From NCBI GenBank assembly GCA_030041255.1, contig JASHOF010000107.1:1-33857 (forward strand): a stretch of 33,857 nt of DNA, given 5' to 3'. Below are positions 1 through 30,311 of the stretch, one piece after another (the first letter of the stretch is position 1; each line of letters begins with the position of its first letter). The notes under the pieces are model-generated. The model saw nothing but the letters and a program-made list of their open reading frames with translations. It made no database searches and was not told where the DNA came from. Made by a program: the position numbers and the translations under genes. This stretch comes from Acetobacteraceae bacterium (GTDB taxonomy: Bacteria; Pseudomonadota; Alphaproteobacteria; Acetobacterales; Acetobacteraceae).

Positions 1-290
1 GCCGGCGCCGTGCCGGCCGCCCCGGCCCCGGTGGCCGGCGACACCGCCGTCGCCGTGGGTGCCGCCGTCACCGCCGGCGATGCCTCCACGATCGCCCTGA
101 GCGTGGCGATGAAGGCATCCCGGCTCTTCGGATTCTCGAGCACGCTGAGCGCCGCCGCCGCTTGCTCCCGGCTGATCGGAGGTTGCGGCCCCGGCGCCGC
201 AGCGGCCAGTCCCACCAACAGGAGAACCAGCACCGGGGCGCCCGTCCACGCCCGCCACGACGCCCTTCGAGCCGGGATCAACTCACGCAT
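1..290 (-). CDS. Mechanosensitive ion channel (MscS family), N-terminal part, runs off the window
   Basis: Reading the minus strand from ATG at 290 gives an open frame to the window edge (about 96 residues). It has a positively charged start, a hydrophobic stretch at about residues 18-35 that reads as a signal peptide or first membrane segment, then a helical segment with SREQAAAALSVLENPKSR and AFIATLRAIVEA. Similar heads occur in large MscS-type channels of Acetobacteraceae, where a periplasmic helical region precedes the pore. The tail is Ala/Thr/Pro-rich and low in complexity. A GGAGGGGA purine run lies directly in front of the ATG, so the spacing is tight and an in-frame TTG five codons in may be the real start. 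The pore domain is outside the window, so the family call is inference. Confidence 0.55.
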   Translation of the reverse strand, partial: MRELIPARRASWRAWTGAPVLVLLLVGLAAAAPGPQPPISREQAAAALSVLENPKSRDAFIATLRAIVEASPAVTAAPTATAVSPATGAGAAGTAP

Positions 291-475
291 TCCCCTCCAA
301 AATACACATCCACGGCGGGCCGGATCCGACCTATGTTCTGGTCTCCTTCCCCCGCCCGTTCATTGCCCGCGGCAACGACCGTGAGGGGATCAAGAGGTCA
401 CTGAAAACAAAGGGCGCGTATGCCGGGCAAGGACGTGCATCATGAATCTCAAGCGTTAGTGTAGGCACCCTAGCC

Positions 476-667
476 GTGCGGCTCATTCTCGTCATCCTCA
501 TCGGCCTCGCTCTCATTGCCACGCTCGGAGTTCTGTTCGCCGGGGTGATCACCCTCGCCCAACCGCAACACGATCCCAGGCGCTCCAATATGCTGATGCG
601 CTGGCGTATCGTGCTGCAGGGCACGGCGCTCCTGCTGCTGGCCCTCCTGTTCCTGGTGAGCCGTTAG
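476..667 (+). CDS. Twin-transmembrane HIG1-domain protein
   Basis: A 63-residue protein with two hydrophobic helices (about residues 2-25 and 45-61) joined by a short loop containing PRRSNMLMRWRIVLQG. This layout, with the polar RSNxLMRWR motif before helix 2, matches the small HIG1/hypoxia-induced proteins of alphaproteobacteria. Mitochondrial relatives associate with and tune cytochrome c oxidase. GTG at 476 is the first usable start after an in-frame stop at 443-445, and there is no clear Shine-Dalgarno. The gene diverges from the channel gene and converges on the carboxypeptidase gene. Its position beside ctaE and surf1 suggests a respiratory role, which is inference. Confidence 0.75.
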   Translation: MRLILVILIGLALIATLGVLFAGVITLAQPQHDPRRSNMLMRWRIVLQGTALLLLALLFLVSR

Positions 668-715
668 CCTCCGCGCCCTCTTGTCCGCAACCAATGCGGC
701 CGGAACGCGGCACGA

Positions 716-2206
716 TCAGGACAGGTAGCGCCGCGTCAGGTGCGCCTCGAAGGCAGCGGGATCGAGCGGCCGCCCCGTCACCTCCCGCAGCAGTCCGTTG
801 TAATCGAAGAGGCTTCCCTTGGCGTGGACATGGCCGGCAAGCCAGCCCGTGAGCGGAGAGAGATCCCCTTCTCCGAGCGCCATCTCCAGGCCCGGCAAGG
901 CCGCGCGCGCCGTCTCCATGAACTGCGCCGCCGCCATCGCGCCCAGGCTGTAGCTCGGGAAGTAGCCGAAGCTGCCGTCGTACCAGTGGATGTCCTGTAG
1001 GCACCCCAGGCCGTCATCGGGCGGAACGATCCCCAGCAGGGCCTCGATCCCGGCATTCCAGGCCGCCGGCAAATCCGGCGGCTCGAGGCCGCCCTCGATC
1101 AACGCCCGCTCGAGTCGGAACCGCAGGATCACGTGCGCCGGGTACGTCAGTTCATCGGCGTCCACGCGGATGAAGCCGCGTTCGACGCGCCGGCATAGAC
1201 GGCCGAGGTTGTCCGCGCCAAAGGCGGGATCGGGGGCAAAGACGCGGGAAAGCTCGCCGCCGAGCCAGCCCAGAAAAGCATCGGTCCGGCACGCCTGCAT
1301 CTCGACGATGAGAGACTGGCTTTCGTGCGCCGCCATCCCCGCCGCGGCTCCCACCGGCTGGCGGGCCCAGGCCGCCGGCAGGCCCCGCTCATAAAGCGCG
1401 TGTCCCGTCTCGTGCAGCACCGCAAACACTGCCCGCAGGGCATCCTTCTCGTCGTAGCGGGTGGTGATGCGGATGTCGGTCGGGTTGCCGCCGCAGAAGG
1501 GGTGGGTCGAGCGGTCAAGCCTGGCCTGGGCGAACGAAAGCCCGGCCCGCTCGATGAGCCGGCGGCAGAACGCCTCCTGCACCGCCACCGGAAACGAACC
1601 GGCGGGGCTCTGCGGCCTGGCAGGAATCGCCGCCCGCGCTTCCGCCTCGGGCAGGGCGCGGGCAAGGAAGCGCTCATAGCGGGCGAAGACGGGTTCGACA
1701 TCGGCCGCCTTGATGCCCGGCTGGAAGCCATCCATCAGCGCATCGTAAGGGCCGAGCCCCAGCGCCGCCCCGAGCGCCCGCGCCTGCTCGCGCGCGAGGC
1801 GGACCACCTCGGTGAAAGACGGCAGGACAGCCGCATAGTCCGCCCGTTCCCGCGCCTCCCGCCAGGTTTTCTCACAGGCCGAGTTCGCCCGCGCCACCGC
1901 CTCGACGAGCGCCCCCGGAACCGCCCGGGCGCGCCGCGCCGCGTGCCGCATGAGCCGGAGATTGGCCGCTCGCCAAGGATCGGCATCAGGCCCCGCCGCC
2001 TCGGCCTCCGCCAGGTCCGCGGCAAGCTCGGGCGCGGTCAGGATTTCATGTGCCAGCCCGGCCAGCACTGCGAGCTGGTCCCCGCGCGCCGGTCCGCCGC
2101 CAGGCGGCATCATTGCCGCCGCGTCCCACCAGAGCAGCCCCTCCGCCTCCCCGAGCACGGCCAGGCGGTGAAACCGTGCGGCCAGCCGGTCATAGGCCTC
2201 GCTCAT
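716..2206 (-). CDS. Carboxypeptidase Taq, M32 metallopeptidase
   Basis: This 496-residue cytoplasmic metallocarboxypeptidase has the usual M32 length. The zinc motif HETGH lies at residues 265-269, followed by a second conserved block HESQS at about 294. Upstream is the family block with HPF at about 235 and the following TDIRITTRY. M32 enzymes remove C-terminal residues of broad specificity from peptides and use a divalent metal. The start is ATG at 2206 (MSEAYDRLAARF), which aligns with the family N-terminus. The frame stays open further upstream but overlaps surf1. Only 10 bp separate it from the surf1 stop, so it is probably the last gene of the ctaE-surf1 run. It converges on the HIG1 gene. 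Confidence 0.9.
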   Translation of the reverse strand: MSEAYDRLAARFHRLAVLGEAEGLLWWDAAAMMPPGGGPARGDQLAVLAGLAHEILTAPELAADLAEAEAAGPDADPWRAANLRLMRHAARRARAVPGALVEAVARANSACEKTWREARERADYAAVLPSFTEVVRLAREQARALGAALGLGPYDALMDGFQPGIKAADVEPVFARYERFLARALPEAEARAAIPARPQSPAGSFPVAVQEAFCRRLIERAGLSFAQARLDRSTHPFCGGNPTDIRITTRYDEKDALRAVFAVLHETGHALYERGLPAAWARQPVGAAAGMAAHESQSLIVEMQACRTDAFLGWLGGELSRVFAPDPAFGADNLGRLCRRVERGFIRVDADELTYPAHVILRFRLERALIEGGLEPPDLPAAWNAGIEALLGIVPPDDGLGCLQDIHWYDGSFGYFPSYSLGAMAAAQFMETARAALPGLEMALGEGDLSPLTGWLAGHVHAKGSLFDYNGLLREVTGRPLDPAAFEAHLTRRYLS

Positions 2207-2216
2207 GGCCGGCCGC

Positions 2217-2963
2217 TCAGGCGCGAAGCCGCTGGCGGGACCAGATGCCGAACTCCAGTACCACCACGCCGGCAAGACCGAACCAGGTCAGCGCATATTG
2301 CAGATGGTTGTTCGGCGGGTGCGGCAGGTGCTCGGCCGGCATCGGATAGATTCCGGGTTGCCGCTCACCAAGTGCCATCAGCGTGAAGGGAGCAACGTCG
2401 GAGAGCCCGAGCGCAGCACCGATCCGCGCCGGATCGAGGGTGTAGAAGCGCCGCCCGGCCGGGTCGTCGGGAGCCGAGAAGAAGCCCGGACGAACAGCCG
2501 GCTCGATGTATCCGTTGATGACTGTGGGGCCCGTCGGAAGCCCGGCCGGACGTTCGTCCGCCAGCGGCACCCAGCCGAGATCAACCAGAATCGGCCGCTC
2601 CCTCGCCCGTTCGAGCGGCACGAGGAGCTGCCCACCCTGCACCGGCCCCGCCATCGTATCCTCCACCTCGTCCCCGTAAATCGCCGCCAGGTCGAGGCGG
2701 AGCCGCCCCTGCACGGCCACCTTGCTGAAGGGTCCCGCGTGCGCGGAAAGCGGAACGCCGGGACGCGCCTCCGCGGCCGCTATCTCGGCCAGGATGCCGA
2801 GCTTCCACTTCAGCCGATGGAGCTGCCAGACCCCGAGCCCGATCAGCCCCGCCACCAGCAATCCGGCCAGCAACCCGGGCAGCAGCAGCGCCCGCCAGCG
2901 TCCGCCCGCCCTGCCATCACCCGCGGCCATCGGTGAACCGCCCGCCAAAGCACGGCTTGTCAT
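2217..2963 (-). CDS. SURF1 family cytochrome oxidase assembly protein
   Basis: A 248-residue inner-membrane protein with the SURF1 layout: an N-terminal TM (about residues 26-48) ending in the family signature GVWQLHRLKWK, a large periplasmic domain, and a C-terminal TM (about 222-242) near the end. Internal SURF1 blocks are visible (GGQLLVPLERARERPILVDLGWVPL and NNHLQYALTWFGLA). SURF1/Shy1 helps insert haem a into subunit I of aa3-type oxidases. Its place 57 bp downstream of ctaE is the common bacterial order. The start is ATG 2963; an internal ATG at 2930 is possible, and neither has a strong ribosome site. The DUF983 gene often found between ctaE and surf1 is absent. Confidence 0.9.
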   Translation of the reverse strand: MTSRALAGGSPMAAGDGRAGGRWRALLLPGLLAGLLVAGLIGLGVWQLHRLKWKLGILAEIAAAEARPGVPLSAHAGPFSKVAVQGRLRLDLAAIYGDEVEDTMAGPVQGGQLLVPLERARERPILVDLGWVPLADERPAGLPTGPTVINGYIEPAVRPGFFSAPDDPAGRRFYTLDPARIGAALGLSDVAPFTLMALGERQPGIYPMPAEHLPHPPNNHLQYALTWFGLAGVVVLEFGIWSRQRLRA

Positions 2964-3020
2964 CGGTCCGGCGCCGGCCGCCCCGCCGCCCCGTCCCTGG
3001 CCGCCCTTCCCCGCCCGCCC

Positions 3021-3869
3021 TCAGCCGGCCGTGACGGCGCTCGCCCCCCAGAGATAGACGCAGGTGAACAGGAACAGCCACACCACGTCCACAAAATGCC
3101 AGTACCAGGCCGCCGCCTCGAAGCCGAAGTGGCGCTCCGGGCTGAACTGCCCCGCCCGGGCCCGGAAGAAGCAGACCGCCAGGAAGCAGGTGCCGACGAT
3201 GACGTGGAAGCCGTGGAACCCGGTGGCGAGGAAGAACACCGAGGGATAAATCCCGCCATGGAACGGGAACGGCGAGTGCGTGTACTCGTAGAGCTGGCCG
3301 AGCGTGAAGCAGATGCCGAGGAAAACCGTCAGCGCCAGCCCCGATACCAGCCCCTTCTGATCCTTCTCGAGCAGGCAATGGTGCGCCCATGTCACCGTGG
3401 TGCCCGAAAGCAGCAGGATCATCGTCAACAGGAACGGCACGCTGAAGGGATCGTCGGTATGGATGCCAACCGGCGGCCACTGCGCGATCTTGGCGAACGA
3501 GACGTGCTCGGGAAACAGGGCAAAATTGAAGAAGGCCCAGAAGAATGCGACGAAAAACATCACCTCGCTGGTGATGAAGAACAGCATCCCGTAGCGCAGG
3601 CCGAGTCGCACGATCGGCGTGTGCATGGCGGGCACGCGGCTCTCGCGTAACACGTCGCGCCACCACATCAGCATCACGAACAGCACGCCGAGCACGCCGA
3701 TGACGAGCAGCGTGTAATTGTCGAAGTTGCCGACCATGATGATGCCGACCAGGGTCAGCGCGCCGAACAGCGCGCCGACGATCGGCCAGGGGCTCGGGTC
3801 CACCAAGTGGTACGGCTGCTTCAGCCCCGAGCTGGTATAGAGTGGGCCCTCGTGCGTCTCGCTGCTCAT
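3021..3869 (-). CDS. ctaE: Cytochrome c oxidase subunit III
   Basis: A 282-residue, seven-helix membrane protein with the full set of subunit III landmarks: an N-terminus with YHLVDPSPWPIVGA, a third helix running into FFVAFFWAFFNFALFP, the HGxHVIVGT-type block (HGFHVIVGTCFLAVCF), and the terminal signature HFGFEAAAWYWHFVDVVWLF. Subunit III stabilises the aa3 oxidase and its proton-uptake path in the cytoplasmic membrane. In most alphaproteobacteria ctaE follows ctaC, ctaD, ctaB and ctaG. Here the gene directly upstream on the same strand is eipB, so ctaE appears detached from the rest of the oxidase operon. surf1 follows directly. Confidence 0.95.
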   Translation of the reverse strand: MSSETHEGPLYTSSGLKQPYHLVDPSPWPIVGALFGALTLVGIIMVGNFDNYTLLVIGVLGVLFVMLMWWRDVLRESRVPAMHTPIVRLGLRYGMLFFITSEVMFFVAFFWAFFNFALFPEHVSFAKIAQWPPVGIHTDDPFSVPFLLTMILLLSGTTVTWAHHCLLEKDQKGLVSGLALTVFLGICFTLGQLYEYTHSPFPFHGGIYPSVFFLATGFHGFHVIVGTCFLAVCFFRARAGQFSPERHFGFEAAAWYWHFVDVVWLFLFTCVYLWGASAVTAG

Positions 3870-3976
3870 GCGTGTTCCGTTCGCTCTCCGCCCCGCATCC
3901 CGCCGCGCGGCAGCGGCATCATCGCCAAAACGCCACGCGGTTCAAGAGCCGGCGGCGGAAGGCGCGGCACCGCCGC

Positions 3977-4810
3977 TCAGCAATGGCTCGGCAGGATGCT
4001 GAGATGGACCATCCGTCCCCGCATCGAGAAGTTGGTGAAATCCATCACCAGGTCGTCCGCCACCCCGTTCAGGAAATAGCGCATGCCGATCTGGAAGTCC
4101 GGCAGCATGGCCGACAGCTCATGGCCGAAGAAGGCAACCCTCACATACGTGCTCGGCATTTCCGCCAGTGCCGGGAAACGGGCCTCGATGCCCTGCGGCC
4201 GGGGCGGGTCCCAACCCTCGATCGCAACCGAACTCCACGAGGCACCGGTCGTATCCGTCCCGTCGAACAGCGGCGTTGCCATGAACTTCCTGCCGGCCCG
4301 GGCGGCCAGGATGATCGCCTCGGTCTGCGCCATCGGAAACAGCGTCCCCGCCGGCAGGGCGATCTTGCTGTGGGTGGGTTCGCTGTAGACCACCTCGCCG
4401 GGCCCTCCCGTCCTCTCCAGGCGCGCCTCGCCGGCGAGCCGGTCGGTGACATCGCCGTTCGTCATGTCCAGGGTGTGGAACCGGAATACCAGCCCGTTCT
4501 TCGCTTCCCAGGTTGCGTAATCGGACAGCGTGTGGGTCAGGGCACCCTCTGCACTGACGAGCGTCATCTCGAGCCGCTGGCGGACCGCCCATCCGTCGCA
4601 GGCATCCAGCACCTCGAAGCCCATCCGGCCGCTGCCGGCAACGACGCTGGTATCGCGTGGAGTCGTGAGCGCGAGCGTATAGAGGGCCCGCTGGCCGACG
4701 AAGGGCAGCGTCGAGCCGGCGGCCGGCGCGGCCGGCGCTGCGCGGGCAACCGAACCCGAAGCCAGGCCCAGAACGAGAAGGATCAGGATCAGATTCGGCA
4801 AATGGCGCAT
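3977..4810 (-). CDS. eipB: EipB-type envelope integrity protein (DUF1849)
   Basis: This 277-residue protein has a cleavable signal peptide (hydrophobic at about 6-22, AxA-type site near ARAAP) and then a beta-rich domain. Family landmarks are the early VGQRALYTLAL strand, the VLDACDGWAV block with Cys71, the threonine-rich middle, and a final Cys as the very last residue (Cys277). In the Brucella EipB family an intramolecular disulfide joins equivalent early and late cysteines, which agrees with what is seen here. EipB is periplasmic and supports cell envelope integrity. ATG 4810 was chosen because it starts the signal peptide; the frame is open further upstream but only as a shadow of aspS. 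It lies 50 bp after aspS and 107 bp before ctaE. Confidence 0.85.
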   Translation of the reverse strand: MRHLPNLILILLVLGLASGSVARAAPAAPAAGSTLPFVGQRALYTLALTTPRDTSVVAGSGRMGFEVLDACDGWAVRQRLEMTLVSAEGALTHTLSDYATWEAKNGLVFRFHTLDMTNGDVTDRLAGEARLERTGGPGEVVYSEPTHSKIALPAGTLFPMAQTEAIILAARAGRKFMATPLFDGTDTTGASWSSVAIEGWDPPRPQGIEARFPALAEMPSTYVRVAFFGHELSAMLPDFQIGMRYFLNGVADDLVMDFTNFSMRGRMVHLSILPSHC

Positions 4811-4860
4811 AAAGCCTCGCTCGTGCGTTGAGACAGGATAGTGAGGATCGGCGGCTCCTG

Positions 4861-6648
4861 TCAGCCCGTCTTCCGCGGCGCCGGCAGGGCAAGACGGATC
4901 GACAGCTCCCTGAGCCGCTCCGGCGCAACCTCGGCCGGCGCCCCCATCATCAGGTCCTGGCCCTGCTGATTGAGCGGGAACAGGATCACCTCCCTGATGT
5001 TCGGCTCCTCCGCCAGCAGCATGACGATCCGGTCGATCCCGGGCGCCGAGCCGCCATGCGGCGGCGCGCCATAGCGGAAGGCATTCAGCATGCCCCCGAA
5101 GCGCCGCTCCACCTCGGCCGCTGGGTAGCCGGCAATGGCGAACGCGCGCAGCATGATGTCCGGCCGGTGGTTGCGGATCGCCCCCGAGGACAGCTCCACC
5201 CCGTTGCAGACGATATCGTACTGATAGGCCTTGATCGTCAGCGGATCCTGCGTCTCGAGCGCTTCGAGCCCTCCTTGCGGCATGCTGAACGGATTGTGGC
5301 TGAAGTCGATCTCTCCGGTCTCCTCGTTCCGCTCGTACATCGGAAAATCGGTGATCCAGCAGAAGCGGAACGCATCGCGCTCGCAAAGCCCGAGCTCCTC
5401 GCCGAGCTTCGTCCTCACGGACCCCGCAAACTTTTCCGCTTCTCCCTTCTTCCCGGCGGCCAGGAAAACCGCATCGCCGGCCGCCAGCGCAAGCGAGGTG
5501 CGAATCGCCTCCGCCCGCTCCGCCTCGAGGTTGCGCGCGATCGGTCCCTTCGCCCCCTCGGCGCCGAAGATGATATAGCCAAGCCCGCCCGTACCCTCCG
5601 CCCGCGCCCATTCGTTCAGCTTGTCGAAGAAGCTCCGCGGCTGCCCTCCCGCCCCGGGAGCCGGGATGGCCCTGACCACCCCCCCCTCGGCAGCGATGCG
5701 CGCGAAGAGTGCAAACCCCGAGCCCGCGAATTCCGCCGTCACATCGCGGATGCGGAGCGGATTGCGCAAGTCCGGCTTGTCCGTGCCGTATTCGGCCAGC
5801 GCACGCTCATAGGGGATGCGCGGAAAGGGCGGGTTCGTGACCGCCCGGCCGCCCGCGAACTCGGAAAAAACCCCGGCCATCACCGGCTCGATGGCGGCGA
5901 ACACATCCTCCTGGGTCACGAAGCTCATTTCGAAGTCGAGTTGGTAGAACTCGCCGGGGCTGCGGTCCGCGCGCGACGCCTCGTCGCGGAAGCACGGCGC
6001 GATCTGGAAGTAGCGCTCGAACCCGGCCACCATGATGAGCTGCTTGAACTGCTGCGGTGCCTGCGGCAGCGCATAGAACTGACCCGGGTGCAACCGCGCG
6101 GGAACGAGGAAGTCGCGCGCTCCCTCGGGCGAGGAGGCGGTCAGGATCGGGGTTGCGAACTCGACGAATCCCGCCTCCGCCATGCGCCGCCGGATCGAGG
6201 CGATCACCGCCGTGCGCAGCATGATGTTGCGATGCATCTTCTCCCGGCGAAGATCGAGGAAGCGGTATTTGAGCCGCAAATCTTCCGGGAACTCCGCCTC
6301 GCCCGCCACCTGGATCGGCAGCATCTCCGCTGCCGACTGCACGAGAAGCGCCGTCACCCGAAGCTCGATCTCGCCCGTCGGCAGCTTCGGATTGGCGGTC
6401 CCCGGTGCGCGCGCCACCACCGTCCCGGTCAGCGTGACGACACTTTCGACGCGCAGCCGCTCCGCCTCCGCGAAAACCGCGTTCTCGCGGTCGAACACGC
6501 ACTGGGTCAGGCCGAAATGGTCCCTGAGGTCGATGAAGAGCAGCCCGCCATGATCGCGCTTGGCATGCACCCAGCCGGAAAGGCGGGCCACGACCCCGAT
6601 ATCGGCGGCACGAAGCGCGCCGCAGTGATGCGTGCGATAAGGATGCAT
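4861..6648 (-). CDS. aspS: Aspartate-tRNA ligase, probably non-discriminating (Asp/Asn)
   Basis: A 595-residue class II aminoacyl-tRNA synthetase of bacterial AspRS length. The N-terminal OB-fold anticodon domain holds [19 protein letters not shown] (about 28-46). Class II motif 2 is [11 protein letters not shown] (about 210-220) with FYQLDFE following, and motif 3 is [14 protein letters not shown] near the C-terminus. The GAD insertion lies between motifs 2 and 3. Residue His33 in RDHG matches the histidine of the Pseudomonas non-discriminating enzyme (H31), where discriminating enzymes such as that of E. coli carry Leu. That suggests this enzyme also charges tRNA-Asn and depends on GatCAB, which cannot be seen here. 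It is divergent from rnd, a common pairing in this group. Confidence 0.95.
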
Positions 6649-6753
6649 CGGTGGCTTCCGCTGCCGGCAAGGCCGGCAGAAGCGCCGCCAGTTCGCTGCC
6701 TGTCAAGCCGCCGCCGGCTTCCCCCTCCGCGAGGGCCCGTGTAGAAGCCCGGG

Positions 6754-7971
6754 ATGCCTCGTCCCGCCGACCGCCTCCCGGCCACGCCGGCGCCATCGCA
6801 AACCCCACCCTCATCGACCCCTCTCCTCAACACCACCGCGGAGCTCGCCACTTTCTGCGAGCGCCTCGCCTCCGAACACTTCATTGCCGTGGATACCGAG
6901 TTCATGCGCGAGCGCACCTACTGGCCGCGCCTCTGCGTGGTCCAGCTCGCCGGCGTGAACGAGGCCGCAGTGATCGATGCCATCGCCCAGGGTATCGACC
7001 TTTCTCCTCTCGGCCACCTGCTCGCCGACCGGGCGGTCACCAAGGTCTTTCACGCCGCCCGCCAAGACGTGGAGATCTTCCTCCTCCTGTTCGGTGCGGT
7101 GCCCGCCCCGCTGTTCGACACCCAGGTCGCGGCCATGGTCGCCGGCTATGGCGATCAGGTCGGTTACGACCAGCTCGTCGCCTCTCTCACCGGCGCCAGT
7201 ATCGACAAGGCTCACCGCTTCAGCGACTGGTCGGCCCGACCGCTCTCACCGGCCCAGATCGCCTATGCAGCTTCCGACGTGACGCACCTTTGCACCGTCT
7301 ATCAGCAACTCCGCGGCCGGCTCGAGCGCGAGGGCCGGCTCGCCTGGGTCGCCGAGGAAATGGCGGTCCTCGCCGACCCCGCGACCTACCGCAACGATCC
7401 GGAAACGGCGTGGGAACGCCTCAAACCCCGCACCGCCAACCGCCGCCTGCTCGGCACCCTGCGCGCCATCGCCGCCTGGCGGGAGCGCGAGGCACAGCGA
7501 ATCGACATCCCGCGCCAGCGTCTTCTGAAGGACGAAACGCTGCTCGAGATTGCGGCGACCGCGCCCGCCACCGCCGCGGCCCTGGCGCGCGCCCGCGGCC
7601 TCCCGCGCGGCTTCGCCGAGGGCAAATCCGGCACCGGCCTGCTCGCCGTGATCGCCGCCGCGCGCGGGCTGCCCGACTCCGCGCTGCCGCTCCCTCCCTC
7701 CGCATACAAGTCCGGCCGTCCCGCCCCGGGGCTGGTGGCACTCCTCAAGGTACTGCTCGCGGCGCGGTGCGAGGCCCATCACGTCGCACCTCGGCTGATC
7801 GCCTCCGCCGATGAGATCGACCGTCTCGCCGCCGAAGAGACGCCCGACATCCCCGCCCTCCATGGCTGGCGGCGCGAGGTTTTCGGCACCGACGCCCTGG
7901 CTCTCAAGGCCGGCCGGATCGCCCTTGGCATCGAGCGCGGCCGCATCAAGCTCCTGCCGATGGTGCCGTAG
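6754..7971 (+). CDS. rnd: Ribonuclease D
   Basis: A 405-residue 3'-5' exoribonuclease of the DEDDy type that trims stable RNA 3' ends, including tRNA. The exonuclease motifs are all present: Exo I with Asp47 and Glu49 in VDTEFMRERTYWP, Exo II with FHAARQD (Asp105), and Exo III YAASDVTHL with Tyr171 and Asp175. An HRDC-like helical region follows at about 225-300 (RLLGTLRAIAAWREREAQ), then a C-terminal helical extension. The first 22 residues are Pro/Ser-rich and unstructured; ATG 6754 is the first start after the divergent aspS promoter region. It converges on dgoK across paired hairpins. Confidence 0.93.
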   Translation: MPRPADRLPATPAPSQTPPSSTPLLNTTAELATFCERLASEHFIAVDTEFMRERTYWPRLCVVQLAGVNEAAVIDAIAQGIDLSPLGHLLADRAVTKVFHAARQDVEIFLLLFGAVPAPLFDTQVAAMVAGYGDQVGYDQLVASLTGASIDKAHRFSDWSARPLSPAQIAYAASDVTHLCTVYQQLRGRLEREGRLAWVAEEMAVLADPATYRNDPETAWERLKPRTANRRLLGTLRAIAAWREREAQRIDIPRQRLLKDETLLEIAATAPATAAALARARGLPRGFAEGKSGTGLLAVIAAARGLPDSALPLPPSAYKSGRPAPGLVALLKVLLAARCEAHHVAPRLIASADEIDRLAAEETPDIPALHGWRREVFGTDALALKAGRIALGIERGRIKLLPMVP

Positions 7972-8090
7972 CCCCTGGAGCAATTTCCGTTCGCCATGGC
8001 TCACGGTAACTGCTCCAGCTCTTTGTCTTGGCGAGCATCTTCACGCGATCAGCCGATTCCGCCTGATCGCGATCTGCTCTGGCATCCCGA
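7972..8090. terminator. Two hairpins between convergent rnd and dgoK
   Basis: The 119-bp gap holds two inverted repeats. The first pairs GGAGCA (7977-7982) with TGCTCC (8011-8016) around an imperfect inner palindrome centred on GCCATGGC. The second pairs CGCGATCAG (8044-8052) with CTGATCGCG (8063-8071) around a 10-base loop. No long T-run follows either. They sit between two converging genes, so a bidirectional terminator is likely. The second hairpin resembles short intergenic repeats I associate with this bacterial group; counting copies genome-wide would tell. Confidence 0.5.
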
Positions 8091-8972
8091 TCACCGGCTC
8101 CAGTCCACCCTCGCGCCGATCGCCGCCAATCCTTGCGCCGCCGCATCTTCGTCTCCCAGCCTGACCCTCCCGCCCATTCCTTCAACCGCCCGCGCGTATT
8201 GTTCGGTCAGGCGGGGCTCGCCAAGCACATGCACCACCGCCGGCTCCGGAAGTTCGGCCCGTACCTCGTGGCCGATCAGGAGGCCCGACAGGTAAGAGGC
8301 AGCGGCAGCCTCATCGAGCCGCCCGGCCAGGCCGAGCGCCCGTACTCCGAAGAGATGATGCAGCCAGCCACCAGGATCGCCGGCGCGGGCAAACCCGAGA
8401 TCGAACGCCGCCCAATCGGTCGGCCCCGGCCGCATCATCCGCCCGAGGATGCTGTGCTCCCTGAGCACGCCGAACACTTCCCCGCTCATGTGCGTGGCAA
8501 AGCCCGCAATACGGCCGTCCCGGCAGGTCACCCACTTGCTGTGGGTCCCGGGCAGGCAGACCAGCCCGCCTCCCCCAAAATGGGGCGCCAGCCCCACGAT
8601 CTTGGTCTCCTCCCCGCGCATGACGTCCGGCACACCCTCTCGATCCTGCGCCGAGACCCCCGCCACCAGCCTCACGCGCGCACCCTCGAACGGCACCGCC
8701 ACGATCGCGCCTGCCAACTCGGCGATACCGGCCGGACAGGGCACGTAGGGGGCCTCCTGCCAGCCCTGCCGGCTGCCGATCATGCCGCAAAGCAGCACCC
8801 GGTCCTCGCCGCCATCCAGCCAGGCGCCGATCTCACCCCGCAGCGTCTCGGCAAATTGTCTCCCGGCAACCTGGAGAATGCCCCTCGGCGCGAGGCGTCG
8901 CTCGAGGATCGCACCGTCAGGCGCCAGCCGGTATGCACGGAAATTGCTCGTGCCCCAATCGACGCCGATCAT
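8091..8972 (-). CDS. dgoK: 2-dehydro-3-deoxygalactonokinase
   Basis: This 293-residue sugar acid kinase begins with the family signature MIGVDWGTSNFRAYRL, an ASKHA-type phosphate-binding loop. Further DgoK blocks are RVLLCGMIGSRQGWQEAPYVPCPAG (about 79-103) and LVCLPGTHSKWV (about 157-168). The enzyme phosphorylates 2-keto-3-deoxy-galactonate in the De Ley-Doudoroff galactose pathway, in the cytoplasm. No other dgo gene (dgoA aldolase, dgoD dehydratase, transporter) is adjacent, so it stands alone here. A hairpin repeat lies just upstream. Confidence 0.88.
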   Translation of the reverse strand: MIGVDWGTSNFRAYRLAPDGAILERRLAPRGILQVAGRQFAETLRGEIGAWLDGGEDRVLLCGMIGSRQGWQEAPYVPCPAGIAELAGAIVAVPFEGARVRLVAGVSAQDREGVPDVMRGEETKIVGLAPHFGGGGLVCLPGTHSKWVTCRDGRIAGFATHMSGEVFGVLREHSILGRMMRPGPTDWAAFDLGFARAGDPGGWLHHLFGVRALGLAGRLDEAAAASYLSGLLIGHEVRAELPEPAVVHVLGEPRLTEQYARAVEGMGGRVRLGDEDAAAQGLAAIGARVDWSR

Positions 8973-27000: not shown

Positions 27001-27366
27001 ATGGCATCAGAGTCCGACCCGCTTCACACCTCTTTGGCAAACGTTGCCGACCTCGCGGAGTTCATGTATCAACTCCATGCACATCTGGGCGACCACGAGC
27101 TGAAGCCGGGCGAGGATCTCAAAGAACGAGCGGTCGCTCTCAAAATCCGGGTTCCGGACTTCCTTGCTGGTAAGCCGCTGATCTATGAGGTTCACGACCA
27201 CAAGGAAGAAGTCCTCGATGGTCGCGCGATTGTGCTTGTGCGCCCGGGCGATTCGAAAAACCCGGTATCGAGAAGAAAGATTATCTGTGGCAGTTGGGGC
27301 CGCTTCACCATCTGCCTGGAGTGTGGCTGGATTTGGTGTCAGATCGTCATCTACGGGCGGTTTTGA
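27001..27366 (+). CDS. Small protein with Cys-rich aromatic C-terminus, function unknown
   Basis: A 121-residue protein not recognised. Residues 1-60 look helical and acidic (ANVADLAEFMYQLHAHLGDH). A beta-like middle follows (KPLIYEVHDHKEEV, RAIVLVRPGD). It ends in a compact Cys/Trp segment with CGSWGRFTICLECGWIWCQ, including a CxxC and a further Cys four residues on. GGAG 9 bases before ATG 27001 is a good ribosome site. Codon third positions are less GC-biased than in the core genes. The frame stays open for 43 codons after the TGA, with four more Cys. It points toward the TIR genes, which lie on the opposite strand. A small zinc-binding protein or a modified peptide precursor are both possible; neither is shown. 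Confidence 0.65.
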   Translation: MASESDPLHTSLANVADLAEFMYQLHAHLGDHELKPGEDLKERAVALKIRVPDFLAGKPLIYEVHDHKEEVLDGRAIVLVRPGDSKNPVSRRKIICGSWGRFTICLECGWIWCQIVIYGRF

Positions 27367-27560
27367 GCCGACTGTGCGCCTCATCGGGAACTTTGCAACG
27401 GAGCCCTCTGGAACGCCATCGGCGATATCGTCGGCTGCTTCACTCCGGGCGAGTGCCGAAACGACATGCGTGACGCTCGATATTTCCAGTCGGGGTGACC
27501 ATGCTGCAGCCTTCGTTTCTGTAGCGGCACAGGTGGCCGGGCGCAGTCGAACCTCGGGGG

Positions 27561-28754
27561 TTAGCGGGCCCGCTCCCAGTCGGCCGCGCCGCGCTCCCAG
27601 GTCATCGTTACGCGATCGGCGCCGTCGAACAGGTAGCGGCCCGATGTCGGACAGCCGCCGCTCGGTGTTCGGTTCCAGTCACCGTTCTCGGCTCTGAAAA
27701 GTCCGTGCTCGCTATGTGATATCCGTAACCGGTAACTTCCGGACGCGGCGATTTCGAAATCGAATGAATAGTCGCTGCAATAATTACGCAACTGCCCGTG
27801 CCAGTGTCCGAAAACGCCGTCAGTCGGCTGGCCATAGAGATTGATCCACCAGAGCTGCGAGCGCAGTGTCATGCTGAGGTCTCCCGGCTTGCCGCCGTCG
27901 ATCGTTCCGTACTGCGTTCGCCATGATGATAATTCGTAGCCAAGAAGTACCGGTTTGCGGGTAAGGGCCGAGGTGAAGGTCAGTTTGCCGCAGACCTCGT
28001 TGGCAGCCCGGCAGGACGCTCCTGTTTCCGACACCGTACCGTAATCTTCGGCGGCGAGGCCGTAGCTGTATTGTCCGTCCGGCGCGACGTCGAACGCAGC
28101 GGCTAATTTCGGACCCGCGAGGGCGGCCTGCAAAAGCTCGCCCACCGTGCTGATATTGCCGCCCTCGTTGATGTCGAGCGTGACCTTCCTGGCGCGCCAC
28201 TTGCCGATGAAGCTCGGCGGCGGGACGGGACGAAGCAGGAGCCAGGCACCGAGCGCGACGAGAACGGCGACAGACGCGGCACCCGCCCGCAATACGCCGC
28301 GGCGGCGATGGAGGGGAAGCGGTGGGGGCGGCGCCGGATGCACCGCTGCACCGCCTTCGAGGATCTGCCTTACCACTCCTGCGAGATACCGCAGATGCCG
28401 CTCCAGCGGCGGCGTGAAGGCGTCGAGCCAATGCGGGGTGCTGAGAAAATATTCGAGCGACTTCGCCGGCAGCACATCCTCGATGCGCAGCGGAATGATC
28501 ACCAGCCCTTTATGGACCGCCCGCTCCACCTCGCGCTTGATCTGCACCGAAGTGTTGGCGTGCGCGGAAAACACCAGCACCATCATCCGCGCCCCCTCGA
28601 TCGCCGTGACGATCGACTCACCCCAGTCAGCCCCGGGGGCAATGTCGCGCGGTGCTATCCAGCAGCGGATGCCGGCCGCCTCCAGCGTCGCAGAGACAGC
28701 ATCGGCCGTCGGCTTGTCCTTCGAGGAATAACCCACAAAGACGTCGTGAGCCAC
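27561..28754 (-). CDS. TIR domain protein with membrane anchor and extracytoplasmic domain (paralogue 1)
   Basis: A 397-residue protein. The TIR domain (about 1-135) opens MAHDVFVGYSSKDKP and contains RCWIAPRDIAPGADWGESIV. Glu75 in QIKREVERA occupies the place of the catalytic glutamate of NAD-cleaving TIRs (SARM1 Glu642), with equal spacing to the following IIP strand. A Pro-rich linker and an RRR cluster (about 141-152) precede one TM (about 153-175), so the TIR should be cytoplasmic and the C-terminal 220 residues outside. That part contains two GxW-type beta-rich units (GKWRARK and GHWHGQL) that look lipocalin-like, and several Cys. It starts with GTG, 21 bp after the stop of the upstream paralogue. 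It lacks a clear own ribosome site, so it is probably in an operon. Confidence 0.85.
   Translation of the reverse strand: MAHDVFVGYSSKDKPTADAVSATLEAAGIRCWIAPRDIAPGADWGESIVTAIEGARMMVLVFSAHANTSVQIKREVERAVHKGLVIIPLRIEDVLPAKSLEYFLSTPHWLDAFTPPLERHLRYLAGVVRQILEGGAAVHPAPPPPLPLHRRRGVLRAGAASVAVLVALGAWLLLRPVPPPSFIGKWRARKVTLDINEGGNISTVGELLQAALAGPKLAAAFDVAPDGQYSYGLAAEDYGTVSETGASCRAANEVCGKLTFTSALTRKPVLLGYELSSWRTQYGTIDGGKPGDLSMTLRSQLWWINLYGQPTDGVFGHWHGQLRNYCSDYSFDFEIAASGSYRLRISHSEHGLFRAENGDWNRTPSGGCPTSGRYLFDGADRVTMTWERGAADWERAR
28194..28754 (-). repeat. Near-identical 561-bp TIR-linker-TM segment, copy 1
   Basis: Covers codons 1-187 of paralogue 1 and matches 29391-29951 almost base for base. The encoded proteins differ at only about five positions up to residue 180. 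Similarity then falls sharply within the GKW motif after the membrane segment. Confidence 0.9.
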
Positions 28755-28775
28755 TGTTGCGTCCCCACGCCCGTT

Positions 28776-29951
28776 CTATTGGACGCGCAGCCAAGTCAAC
28801 GAGTTTCGCTCCGAGGTCACGGTGACGAGGTTCGGACCGCTGAACGCATAGCTGCCCGAGTGCGGAGGGCCCATGCTGGGGTTTTGCGTCCAGGTTCCGT
28901 TCTTGGCTCGAAACAGGCCTTGCTCGTGGCGCAATACCTCGAGGCGATAGGTGCCGCCCGCGGATATGTCGAGAACGGGCGTGTAGCGATCATAGCCGAT
29001 CAGGAAATTCTTGTCGCGCCAGCTTCCGATGATCCCGGCGCTCGGCTTGCCGGCGAAATTCACCTGCCAATCCGGCCCGTCGATCAACAGACCGGCATCG
29101 CCGGATTCTCCGCCCGCCGGATAGACGGCGGCGTTGAAGGGGCCGGGAGGCAGTAAATCGTAGCTGGCCGAGATGGAGCTTCCGGTAATGGCGGAAGTGA
29201 AGGTCAGTCTTCGCGAGGACATCGCCACCTTCCCGTGGTCCTCGGCGGCAAGGTCGTAAGTATATTCACCGAGCTTCGTGACGACGAGGCTCGCGCTGAT
29301 CTTCGGGCCGTGAAAGGCGGCTGCCAGCAGGTCGGCGAGAGGCACGGCTATGACGCCTTGCGGTCCGACGTCGATCGAGACCTTAGTCGCCTGCCACTTG
29401 CCGACGAAGCTCGGCGGCGGGACGGGACGAAGCAGGAGCCAGGCACCGAGCGCGACGAGAACGGCGACAGACGCGGCACCCGCCCGCAATACGCCGCGGC
29501 GGCGATGGAGGGGAAGCGGCGGGGGCGGTGCCGGACGCACCGCTGCACCGCCTTCGAGGATCTGCCTTACCACTCCTGCGAGATACCGCAGATGCCGTTC
29601 CAGCGGCGGCGTGAAGGCGTCGAGCCAATGCGGGGTACTGAGAAAATATTCGAGCGACTTCGCCGGCAACACATCCTCGATGCGCAGCGGAATGATCACC
29701 AGCCCTTTATGGACCGCCCGCTCAACCTCGCGCTTGATCTGCACCGAAGTGTTGGCGTACGCGGAAAACACCAGCACCATCACCCGCGCCTCCTCGATCG
29801 CCGTGACGATCGACTCACCCCAGTCAGCCCCGGGGGCAATGTCGCGCGGTGCTATCCAGCAGCGGATGCCGGCCGCCTCCAGCGTCGCAGAGACAGCATC
29901 GGCCGTCGGCTTGTCCTTCGAGGAATAACTCACAAAGACGTCGTGGGCCAC
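28776..29951 (-). CDS. TIR domain protein with membrane anchor and extracytoplasmic domain (paralogue 2)
   Basis: This 391-residue tandem paralogue of the preceding gene has the same layout: TIR (about 1-135, with the same candidate catalytic Glu75), Pro-rich linker, RRR, one TM (about 153-175), then a beta-rich outer part. The outer domain keeps only scattered identity to its sister: GPK, LAAEDxG, YRLEVLRHEQGLFRAKNGTW, SGSYAF. It also lacks the Cys pair found there. GGAGGAA lies 2 bases from GTG 29951, so this is the first gene of the pair. The hairpin at 29995-30013 and a truncated helix-turn-helix ORF lie just upstream on the same strand. A defence or stress-signalling role is inference from TIR biology. 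Confidence 0.85.
   Translation of the reverse strand: MAHDVFVSYSSKDKPTADAVSATLEAAGIRCWIAPRDIAPGADWGESIVTAIEEARVMVLVFSAYANTSVQIKREVERAVHKGLVIIPLRIEDVLPAKSLEYFLSTPHWLDAFTPPLERHLRYLAGVVRQILEGGAAVRPAPPPPLPLHRRRGVLRAGAASVAVLVALGAWLLLRPVPPPSFVGKWQATKVSIDVGPQGVIAVPLADLLAAAFHGPKISASLVVTKLGEYTYDLAAEDHGKVAMSSRRLTFTSAITGSSISASYDLLPPGPFNAAVYPAGGESGDAGLLIDGPDWQVNFAGKPSAGIIGSWRDKNFLIGYDRYTPVLDISAGGTYRLEVLRHEQGLFRAKNGTWTQNPSMGPPHSGSYAFSGPNLVTVTSERNSLTWLRVQ
29391..29951 (-). repeat. Near-identical 561-bp TIR-linker-TM segment, copy 2
   Basis: This is the partner of 28194-28754. High identity ends at the same codon in both genes. That fits either a recent tandem duplication with exchange of the outer domain, or gene conversion limited to the cytoplasmic half. 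Confidence 0.9.
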
Positions 29952-30014: not shown

Positions 30015-30122
30015 GGGATTATGCGAGATTGGCAGCGCTGGTCGCATCATCCAAAGCCGACCGATGTCGACGCGCTACGCCATGCTTCGTTCCGGCAACG
30101 ACACACGACTTCGCATAATCCC
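30015..30122. repeat. 108-bp element bounded by perfect 12-bp inverted repeats
   Basis: GGGATTATGCGA (30015-30026) and TCGCATAATCCC (30111-30122) are exact inverted copies. Just outside the right end a related ATGCGGAG-type motif follows at about 30127-30134 (minus strand), giving two ATGCGRAG words about 17 bp apart. Such arrangements resemble ends of recombinase-mobilised elements. No target duplication is evident. The right repeat overlaps the 3' part of the helix-turn-helix ORF and probably cut it short. Confidence 0.5.
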
Positions 30123-30311
30123 ACTCTCCGCATCATCGGTCAGGCGGACGATGCTTTGCTCGCCCGGGCGTACCCGGCCCGATGTCCAGCGCACCGCAAC
30201 GGACTTGTCCACACCGACCGCGTGCGCAAGCTGGACGCGGCTCAAGCTCAGCCGGTCGCACATCAAATTCAACTTTTCAGCGAGCTGCTCGATACTCGGA
30301 GAACGCGGCAT
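30075..30311 (-). CDS. Truncated helix-turn-helix (XRE-like) protein
   Basis: A 78-residue frame whose first 48 residues form a convincing XRE-like DNA-binding domain: helices EQLAEKLNLMCDRL, LSRVQLAHAVG, and the recognition region VDKSVAVRWTSGRVRP. From about residue 56 (ESGIMRSRVSLPERSMA) the sequence corresponds to the inverted-repeat element, so the natural C-terminus is lost. In relatives I know this domain heads a longer protein. It is on the same strand as the TIR genes and 123 bp upstream. AAGGG lies 8 bases before ATG 30311. It could be a remnant or a small repressor. Confidence 0.5.
   Translation of the reverse strand: MPRSPSIEQLAEKLNLMCDRLSLSRVQLAHAVGVDKSVAVRWTSGRVRPGEQSIVRLTDDAESGIMRSRVSLPERSMA

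Follow-up and report, generated by a model that had tools for sequence, protein, structure and literature searches.

Two adjacent genes, A and B, in the genome of an Acetobacteraceae bacterium (GenBank assembly GCA_030041255.1) encode putative membrane receptors with a TIR domain. Our data support well that their output halves, consisting of the TIR domain, a proline linker and a transmembrane (TM) helix, were recently copied or converted between genes that are old. The window, by which we mean the whole stretch of DNA analysed, is contig JASHOF010000107.1 (33,857 nucleotides). Outside the window, in other genomes, genes for related TIR proteins lie close to genes for RyR-domain (PF02026) proteins. 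This linkage is the strongest new lead of the analysis and, as a pattern of gene content, suggests an unrecognised signalling route. The features of the pair are as follows.

28776–29951, minus strand: gene A, the upstream copy (391 residues), with a TIR domain, Pro linker, TM helix and outer half
27561–28754, minus strand: gene B, the downstream copy; layout as gene A, 397 residues
28755–28775, no strand: gap of 21 bp between A and B
29394–29951, minus strand: homogenised tract of A, codons 1–186
28197–28754, minus strand: homogenised tract of B, codons 1–186
29613–29939, minus strand: TIR_2 domain of A including Glu75, by profile match
28416–28742, minus strand: TIR_2 domain of B including Glu75, by profile match
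29433–29492, minus strand: predicted membrane helix of A, residues 154–173, from the full-length model and hydropathy
28236–28295, minus strand: predicted membrane helix of B, residues matched to A by ungapped alignment; hydropathy
28779–29411, minus strand: outer half of A, two beta units that each open with GxW, lipocalin-like by prediction
27564–28214, minus strand: outer half of B, the same by homology alone

The output halves of A and B are homogenised

An initial annotation of this DNA had described two same-strand genes, 21 bp apart, that share 561 bp at near identity. Both open reading frames (ORFs) were found as described, and 546 of the 561 positions are identical, as are 545 of the 558 (97.7%) that make up codons 1–186. 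Identity falls abruptly near codon 187, just past the membrane helix. The 13 differences in positions 1–558 comprise 7 synonymous and 6 non-synonymous changes. By Nei–Gojobori counts, codons 1–186 hold 7.0 synonymous differences in 150.3 sites (synonymous divergence (dS) 0.048, non-synonymous divergence (dN) 0.015, dN/dS around 0.3), whereas the aligned rest, from codon 187 onwards, holds 85.8 in 147.3 sites (dS 1.125, dN 0.558). Because selection at the protein level does not depress dS in this way, the copying or conversion of the first half must have come long after the outer halves had split, and the likeness of codons 1–186 exceeds both chance and purifying selection. The substitution rates along the pair thus bear out the annotated picture of a homogenised output half joined to a diverged outer half. 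The description of the C-terminal halves as keeping only scattered motifs was right about their divergence but understated their likeness, which amounts to 41% amino-acid identity over the aligned length.

In a tree of TIR domains, A and B are sisters (support 97/98). The tree built from ten outer halves leaves A, B and a Caulobacteraceae protein (L022; L and G are our handles for loci and genomes) in one unresolved fork (A+B 47/22). This tree indicates outer halves of long standing and does not place them demonstrably closer to each other than to that of another family.

Tandem arrays of TIR–TM–outer-domain genes exist elsewhere too. Our set of eight comprised the window pair, L135, L144, L145, L146, L147 and a pair in G1031, for which dS was calculated, and L148, which has a partial TIR and no dS value; other candidates, such as two TIR matches within one ORF of G859, fall outside the set. 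Homogenisation was observed in three of the eight, the window included, which belong to three unrelated lineages. The TIR dS values of a triplet in Mycobacterium sp. OAS707 were 0.081, 0.186 and 0.263, against outer dS values of 0.74–0.84. An adjacent pair in Lentisphaerae (L135, 4909–9911) had a TIR dS of 0.349 and unlike outer modules that gave no convincing alignment; a third TIR–TM copy of L135 lies on another contig. No orthologous A/B pair was found in other genomes.

The data from a single genome fit a one-off copying of the N-terminal half and repeated gene conversion alike, and we regard overwriting of the TIR–linker–TM half by gene conversion as most likely. In the one-off account, which we hold to be a serious but less probable contender, the TIR–TM half was recently duplicated onto a pre-existing second outer half, with no selection for likeness, and the two copies would drift apart from now on. 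Sharp tract ends near the start codon and past the TM helix, outer halves that are not firm sisters, and TIR–TM halves joined to unlike outer modules in other genomes would all agree with such an event. It accounts less well for outer halves that belong to one rare family and stand in tandem, as an old duplicate would, and for a similar picture that recurs in two unrelated lineages.

The TIR domains of Toll-like receptors (TLRs) are adaptors. In mammalian TLR1 and TLR6, according to Kruithof et al. 2007 (PMC2077338), independent gene conversions maintain the likeness of the last leucine-rich repeats (LRRs), the TM helix and most of the TIR domain, and the other parts diverge. A and B resemble TLR1 and TLR6 as predicted tandem single-pass receptors whose TIR halves agree at synonymous sites, in contrast to the rest, which in the TLRs means parts of the ectodomain. 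They are unlike them in having an N-terminal TIR and a C-terminal outer half that is lipocalin-like by prediction, not built of LRRs, and in a homogenised tract that takes in no outer part, whereas the TLR tract includes the last LRRs.

Predicted receptor architecture

TIR_2 (PF13676) matched A with 82.1 bits (E 5.8e-23) and B with 77.1 bits (E 2.1e-21), the curated cut-off being 28. As annotated, a glutamate stands at the spacing of TIR enzymes that cleave nicotinamide adenine dinucleotide (NAD+): Glu75 is present in A and B and, like Trp32 and Trp109, in every one of the 73 relatives, and it aligns with a glutamate of Cat1 and with one of TIR-STING. We take its position to be that of the catalytic glutamate of TIR NAD+-consuming enzymes. 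The remainder of the shared part also holds the elements first described, with a Pro-rich linker, an HRRRG motif and a predicted helix at residues 154–173. A full-length model (predicted local distance difference test (pLDDT) 75.7, predicted TM-score (pTM) 0.51) contains the TIR domain, this helix and low-confidence stretches at 97–114 and 136–158. Its TIR fold matched SPARTA, plant TIRs, PdTIR, SARM1 and AbTir, among which SPARTA, SARM1 and AbTir are NADases.

We compared the pair with known TIR systems. The PADLOC (2023) ThsB model reached E 0.0097 in A and was unlisted for B, which does not place the pair in Thoeris, although newer types may lack a model; the NCBIfam model of type III ThcB4 scored 14.9 bits in A against a cut-off of 220, and no ThsA-type effector was found among the part of the window ORFs scanned with Pfam. 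Nor did the pair fit the TIR-SAVED proteins of CBASS: the PADLOC SAVED_TIR model covers residues 3–80 only, which is the TIR part, and no SAVED family appeared in the Pfam scan up to E 1. What A and B would share with Thoeris is a TIR proposed to make, from NAD+, an ADP-ribose-type signal that a second protein receives. They differ from it as predicted membrane receptors with an outer sensor, in the RyR receiver that we propose, and in having no ThsA-type effector beside them among the ORFs scanned.

A profile of the TIR–TM half found at least 419 relatives, and 80 loci were kept. Topology was counted in 75 proteins of at least 220 residues, A and B included, after seven shorter loci had been dropped. 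One predicted TM helix follows the TIR domain in 60, more than one in 11 and none in 4. Lysine plus arginine (K/R) counts are higher before the TM helix in 45 of the 60, tied in 12 and higher after it in 3, with the caveat that the rows are related and that the anchor of L059 is probably a segment other than that at 343; in A the count is 4 before and 2 after. The outer modules of the 73 relatives included TPR (up to 7 for one model), FGE-sulfatase (6), Sel1 (4), SBP_bac_5 (1) and Peripla_BP_6 (1), the last two of which are extracytoplasmic by description. The K/R bias and these two modules favour the annotated orientation, a single pass with the N terminus inside and the outer half outside the membrane. 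The same counts do not uphold the view that the layout is unusual: with one TM helix in 60 of 75 proteins and many kinds of outer module, it is widespread. Five acidobacterial TIR–TM proteins (L061, L067, L072, L074 and L075) carry a different two-unit, Trp-rich, beta-like outer module.

The outer half belongs to a rare family

An iterated profile of the outer half recovered six further proteins from the 80 loci (L019, L022, L023, L024, L026 and L043), and L111 and L139 added two more. By the lineages in their record titles, these relatives belong to Verrucomicrobiota, Planctomycetota, Gemmatimonadota, Myxococcota and Pseudomonadota, and by these profile matches the outer half thus forms a family that is rare yet conserved, with members in five phyla. 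Its retention in the eight relatives rules out a degraded domain without conservation, an outcome that the initial annotation had named as damaging to its proposal. In the genome samples searched, a common module is likewise rejected. Among 395 genomes of the order, profile A1 matched three, namely the source genome and two with marginal matches (E 0.002 and 0.006); among 398 genomes of the phylum, profile A4 matched two, the source genome and one with a doubtful ORF of 2,653 residues bearing two matches (E 1e-4 and 0.006). Both counts are lower bounds, with at most seven candidates scored per genome. The outer half was not found in viral contigs, had no Pfam match over cut-off and, as a profile searched against PDB sequences, gave no match below E 0.08. 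A same-genus relative (L021, 5001–5800) has a TIR domain and an apparent single outer unit, within which the frame is broken in the assembly.

As annotated, GxW opens two units per protein, at 184 and 309 in A and at 184 and 316 in B; further GxW motifs lie at 169, inside the helix, and at 352/358. A model of the A outer half, built from an eight-row alignment (pLDDT 88.4, pTM 0.82), consists of beta strands apart from a single short helix, and the strands fall into two series that resemble each other. In a VIA structure search the top rows were Bacteroides proteins: a lipocalin family protein (Z 11.6), a putative monosaccharide-binding protein (Z 11.2) and a lipocalin-like protein (Z 11.1). 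These rows align 80–81 residues drawn from model residues 1 to 211, that is, from both units; because the alignment spans the whole model, it does not separate two GxW-opening, eight-strand barrels of the lipocalin (calycin) kind, and a two-barrel split is our interpretation. The model ranges in VIA give a hint, which we do not put forward as a claim, that the second barrel may be completed by the first strand of the outer half. Further VIA matches were ToxS (Z 8.4) and Cap15 (7n34; Z 7.3), and Foldseek placed ToxS first (probability 1.00, E 5.7e-3), followed by a bile-acid-binding protein. The outer half is therefore predicted to be lipocalin-like, in agreement with the initial annotation.

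The ToxS match recalls ToxR/ToxS and VtrA/VtrC, which are described as co-component receptors that combine a cytoplasmic output, a TM helix and a periplasmic lipocalin-like sensor in adjacent genes. The likeness is one of layout and predicted structure, and the output of A and B is a TIR domain. In ToxR/ToxS and VtrA/VtrC the output is a DNA-binding domain. The small beta-barrel of the CBASS receptor Cap15 was matched by the outer-half model at a middling Z, and the output there is different; Cap15 has a membrane anchor, and its barrel is cytoplasmic.

RyR genes lie near related TIR genes in many phyla

We took the nearest two long ORFs at 52 of the 80 loci as a neighbour set, dropping loci shorter than 7 kb and keeping one of eight Sphingopyxis-like loci. 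RyR and TrkA_N each occurred in four members among these 104 ORFs. A wider search covered 63 genomes behind the fetched loci, leaving aside second loci per genome, several Sphingopyxis and three other genomes. RyR was matched in 37 of the 63 (36 over cut-off) and in none of 14 control genomes. The RyR match lay within 5 kb of the TIR match in 15 of the 37, within 2.5 kb in 14 and on the same contig in 16; random placement predicts 0.28 genomes where 15 were seen, a figure uncorrected for kinship in a set that holds several close kin. Among the 15, the case of G872 (L063) rests on a sub-threshold genome match and our own profile, and Pfam gave no RyR in that ORF. By their record titles, the 15 loci are spread over about eight phyla (Actinomycetota, Chloroflexota, Verrucomicrobiota, Armatimonadota, Acidobacteriota, Syntrophobacterales, Bacteroidota and one archaeon).

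One TM helix follows the TIR domain in 12 of the 15 linked TIR genes; the other three have several TM helices (L027), none after the TIR (L071) or a TIR behind the TM helix (L088). TrkA_N and RyR occur together over both cut-offs in nine loci (L040, L049, L053, L058, L072, L076, L079, L081 and L088), and in L084 TrkA_N is just under its cut-off. Eight of the nine TrkA_N-RyR proteins have two predicted TM helices, and that of L076 is cut by the contig end. Other layouts are AAA-RyR-RyR (L081), RyR-TPR-S (L027 and L171) and RyR alone (L071). The two RyR-TPR-S genes (L027, 2100–4976; L171, 1471–3267) lie about 2 kb from the TIR gene, and that of L027 adds a cyclase-like domain. Genomes with these TIR genes also have stand-alone RyR ORFs of about 100–150 residues (L166, L168, L170 and L071, 3208–3654), a size that would be expected of an unattached protein that hydrolyses or binds the signal. 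The archaeal TIR protein of L088 (812–2233, 474 residues), whose C-terminal TIR behind a predicted TM helix gives the order of a Toll-like receptor, is encoded 82 bp from a TrkA_N-RyR match.

A recent preprint (PMC13232231) reports that a phage RyR-domain protein cleaves 2'/3' cyclic ADP-ribose (2'/3'cADPR), that six of eight homologues bind it and that contacts run through H75, W78, H100 and D117. We read these columns by spacing and alignment in the best domain per locus, for 14 adjacent loci and the source genome. The first histidine is kept in 15 of 15, W or F in 15, the second histidine in 11 and the aspartate in 14, with all four in 10. The TIR-adjacent domains thus keep most of the contact residues reported in the preprint for the phage RyDEP family (PF02026). 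They are unlike RyDEP, described there as phage counter-defence enzymes or sponges, in being cellular and fused to TrkA_N in nine of 15 loci. Besides this preprint, nothing on prokaryotic RyR domains was found among the literature matches listed, and an earlier mention of TIR with RyR is possible. The word 'TrkA' is absent from the preprint, and a term search found neither 'RyR' nor 'TrkA' in the main text of two eLife papers on bacterial conflict systems.

The RyR protein of the source genome has the layout of two TM helices, TrkA_N and RyR (2TM-TrkA_N-RyR), and its link to A and B is a conjecture. Its cluster (L195, G000:C1:3000-12720, positions 1–8663) encodes an nSTAND1-Sel1 protein, another TIR protein and the 2TM-TrkA_N-RyR protein. 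In a Pseudomonadota sample of 383 genomes, RyR occurred in 8, the TIR–TM profile in 5 and both in 2, one of which is the source genome by design; two shared genomes are too few to decide on co-occurrence.

Genomic surroundings

A and B both start with GTG. Their spacing makes a single transcript likely, and pattern searches for promoters and terminators around them gave matches at chance level. A whole-genome search with A found no copies besides A and B, and the source genome has four TIR_2 matches in total. Upstream lies a short helix-turn-helix-like ORF (30075–30311) below the Pfam cut-offs. Downstream of B, on the same strand, an ORF of 125 residues (27007–27384) has no family match in three libraries. 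Most of the other window ORFs that were scanned point to metabolism, with M32 and S58 peptidases, hydantoinase A and B, aldehyde dehydrogenase, class-III aminotransferase and pyrroloquinoline quinone (PQQ) dehydrogenase.

A defence island is not supported. At most 6 of the 104 neighbour ORFs matched PADLOC models at 1e-10, which makes a defence-island argument weak. Viral, phage and plasmid collections held nothing close to A or B; a phage, plasmid or provirus origin was set aside, as there was no plasmid match, one weak phage match and two distant TIRs on viral contigs. These results, the metabolic setting and the ToxS-like and lipocalin-like matches of the sensor half would suit an envelope or nutrient sensor apart from phage defence, with the TIR domain as a scaffold. 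We consider such a sensor rather unlikely; the invariant glutamate at the catalytic position and the linkage to RyR genes count against it.

Proposed explanation

We propose that A and B are single-pass inner-membrane receptors with a cytoplasmic TIR domain and, in the periplasm, a sensor made up of two beta units of lipocalin-like fold, the two sensors having different ligands or partners. Binding or assembly outside would cluster the TIR domains inside, and the clustered TIRs would act on NAD+ through Glu75 to yield an ADP-ribose-type product. The overwritten TIR–linker–TM half would let both receptors feed the same response while their outer halves diverge. The receiver would most likely be a RyR-domain protein, typically a 2TM-TrkA_N-RyR protein that may be channel-like, and it would halt growth by altering the flow of ions or in some other way, presumably in response to phage or envelope damage. 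As a whole, this explanation of paired sensors, a homogenised TIR output, an NAD+-derived signal and a RyR receiver has a probability of about 0.5 in our estimate.

Several findings weigh against it. In the outer halves, A is nearer to B (41–42% identity) than to L022 (34%), so A and B may still form a pair, and the outer-half tree has long branches and a flagged composition for B. L145, L146, L147 and the G1031 pair are not homogenised (TIR dS 1.3 in G1031, a Mycobacterium), which rules out homogenisation as a general rule. The K/R count of B is a tie (4 before and 4 after), and Foldseek gave no match below E 0.001 for the outer-half model. A six-frame search found the sole RyR gene of the source genome on contig C1 and none on the window contig (C14), which ends 3.9 kb beyond A, so that no RyR gene lies within 5 kb of A or B as sequenced. 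That RyR gene adjoins a different TIR gene, where no outer module was seen, and its protein has Asn in the D117 column. Among the eight Pseudomonadota RyR loci, a recognised TIR was near two, some stretches being short.

Moreover, 26 of the 63 genomes had no RyR match. This absence, the invariant Glu75 and the fold matches to NADases would accord with a TIR that kills directly, in which clustering depletes NAD+ and thereby kills the cell, without a messenger or a RyR receiver; we think this improbable, as the proximity of RyR genes to related TIR genes fits a signal with its receiver. Finally, B carries Gly at TIR position 8, a site occupied by Ser in 72 of the 73 relatives and by Cys in the other, and the TIR of B may be altered. 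Were it impaired, B could be a regulatory or decoy partner whose matching membrane half joins the assembly of A. This strikes us as the least probable of the alternatives, given a dN/dS of about 0.3 in the tract and the retention of Glu75, Trp32 and Trp109 in B.

Returning to the proposed receptors with a RyR receiver, a broader and more tentative reading, to which we give somewhat less than even odds, joins membrane TIR receptors with exchangeable outer sensors and RyR proteins into one widespread bacterial and archaeal system, in which binding on the outside would lead the TIR to make a cADPR signal, channel-like 2TM-TrkA_N-RyR proteins would read it, and conversion in tandem copies would maintain the output as the sensors diversify. 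A and B would then use the only RyR protein of their genome, and the system would be the prokaryotic equivalent of the action of cADPR on ryanodine receptors. The pair presents a bacterial case of the evolutionary behaviour of TLR1 and TLR6, with a constant TIR output, most likely through conversion, and diverging sensors. Phage RyR proteins were recently reported to bind TIR-made signals (PMC13232231), and the RyR proteins, many of which carry TM helices and TrkA_N and which in many phyla are encoded next to related TIR genes, indicate a receiver that can be tested. If the proposal is right, prokaryotes would have a form of TIR-to-cADPR-to-RyR signalling, and a pathway could be assigned to a large family of receptors that is so far unexplained.

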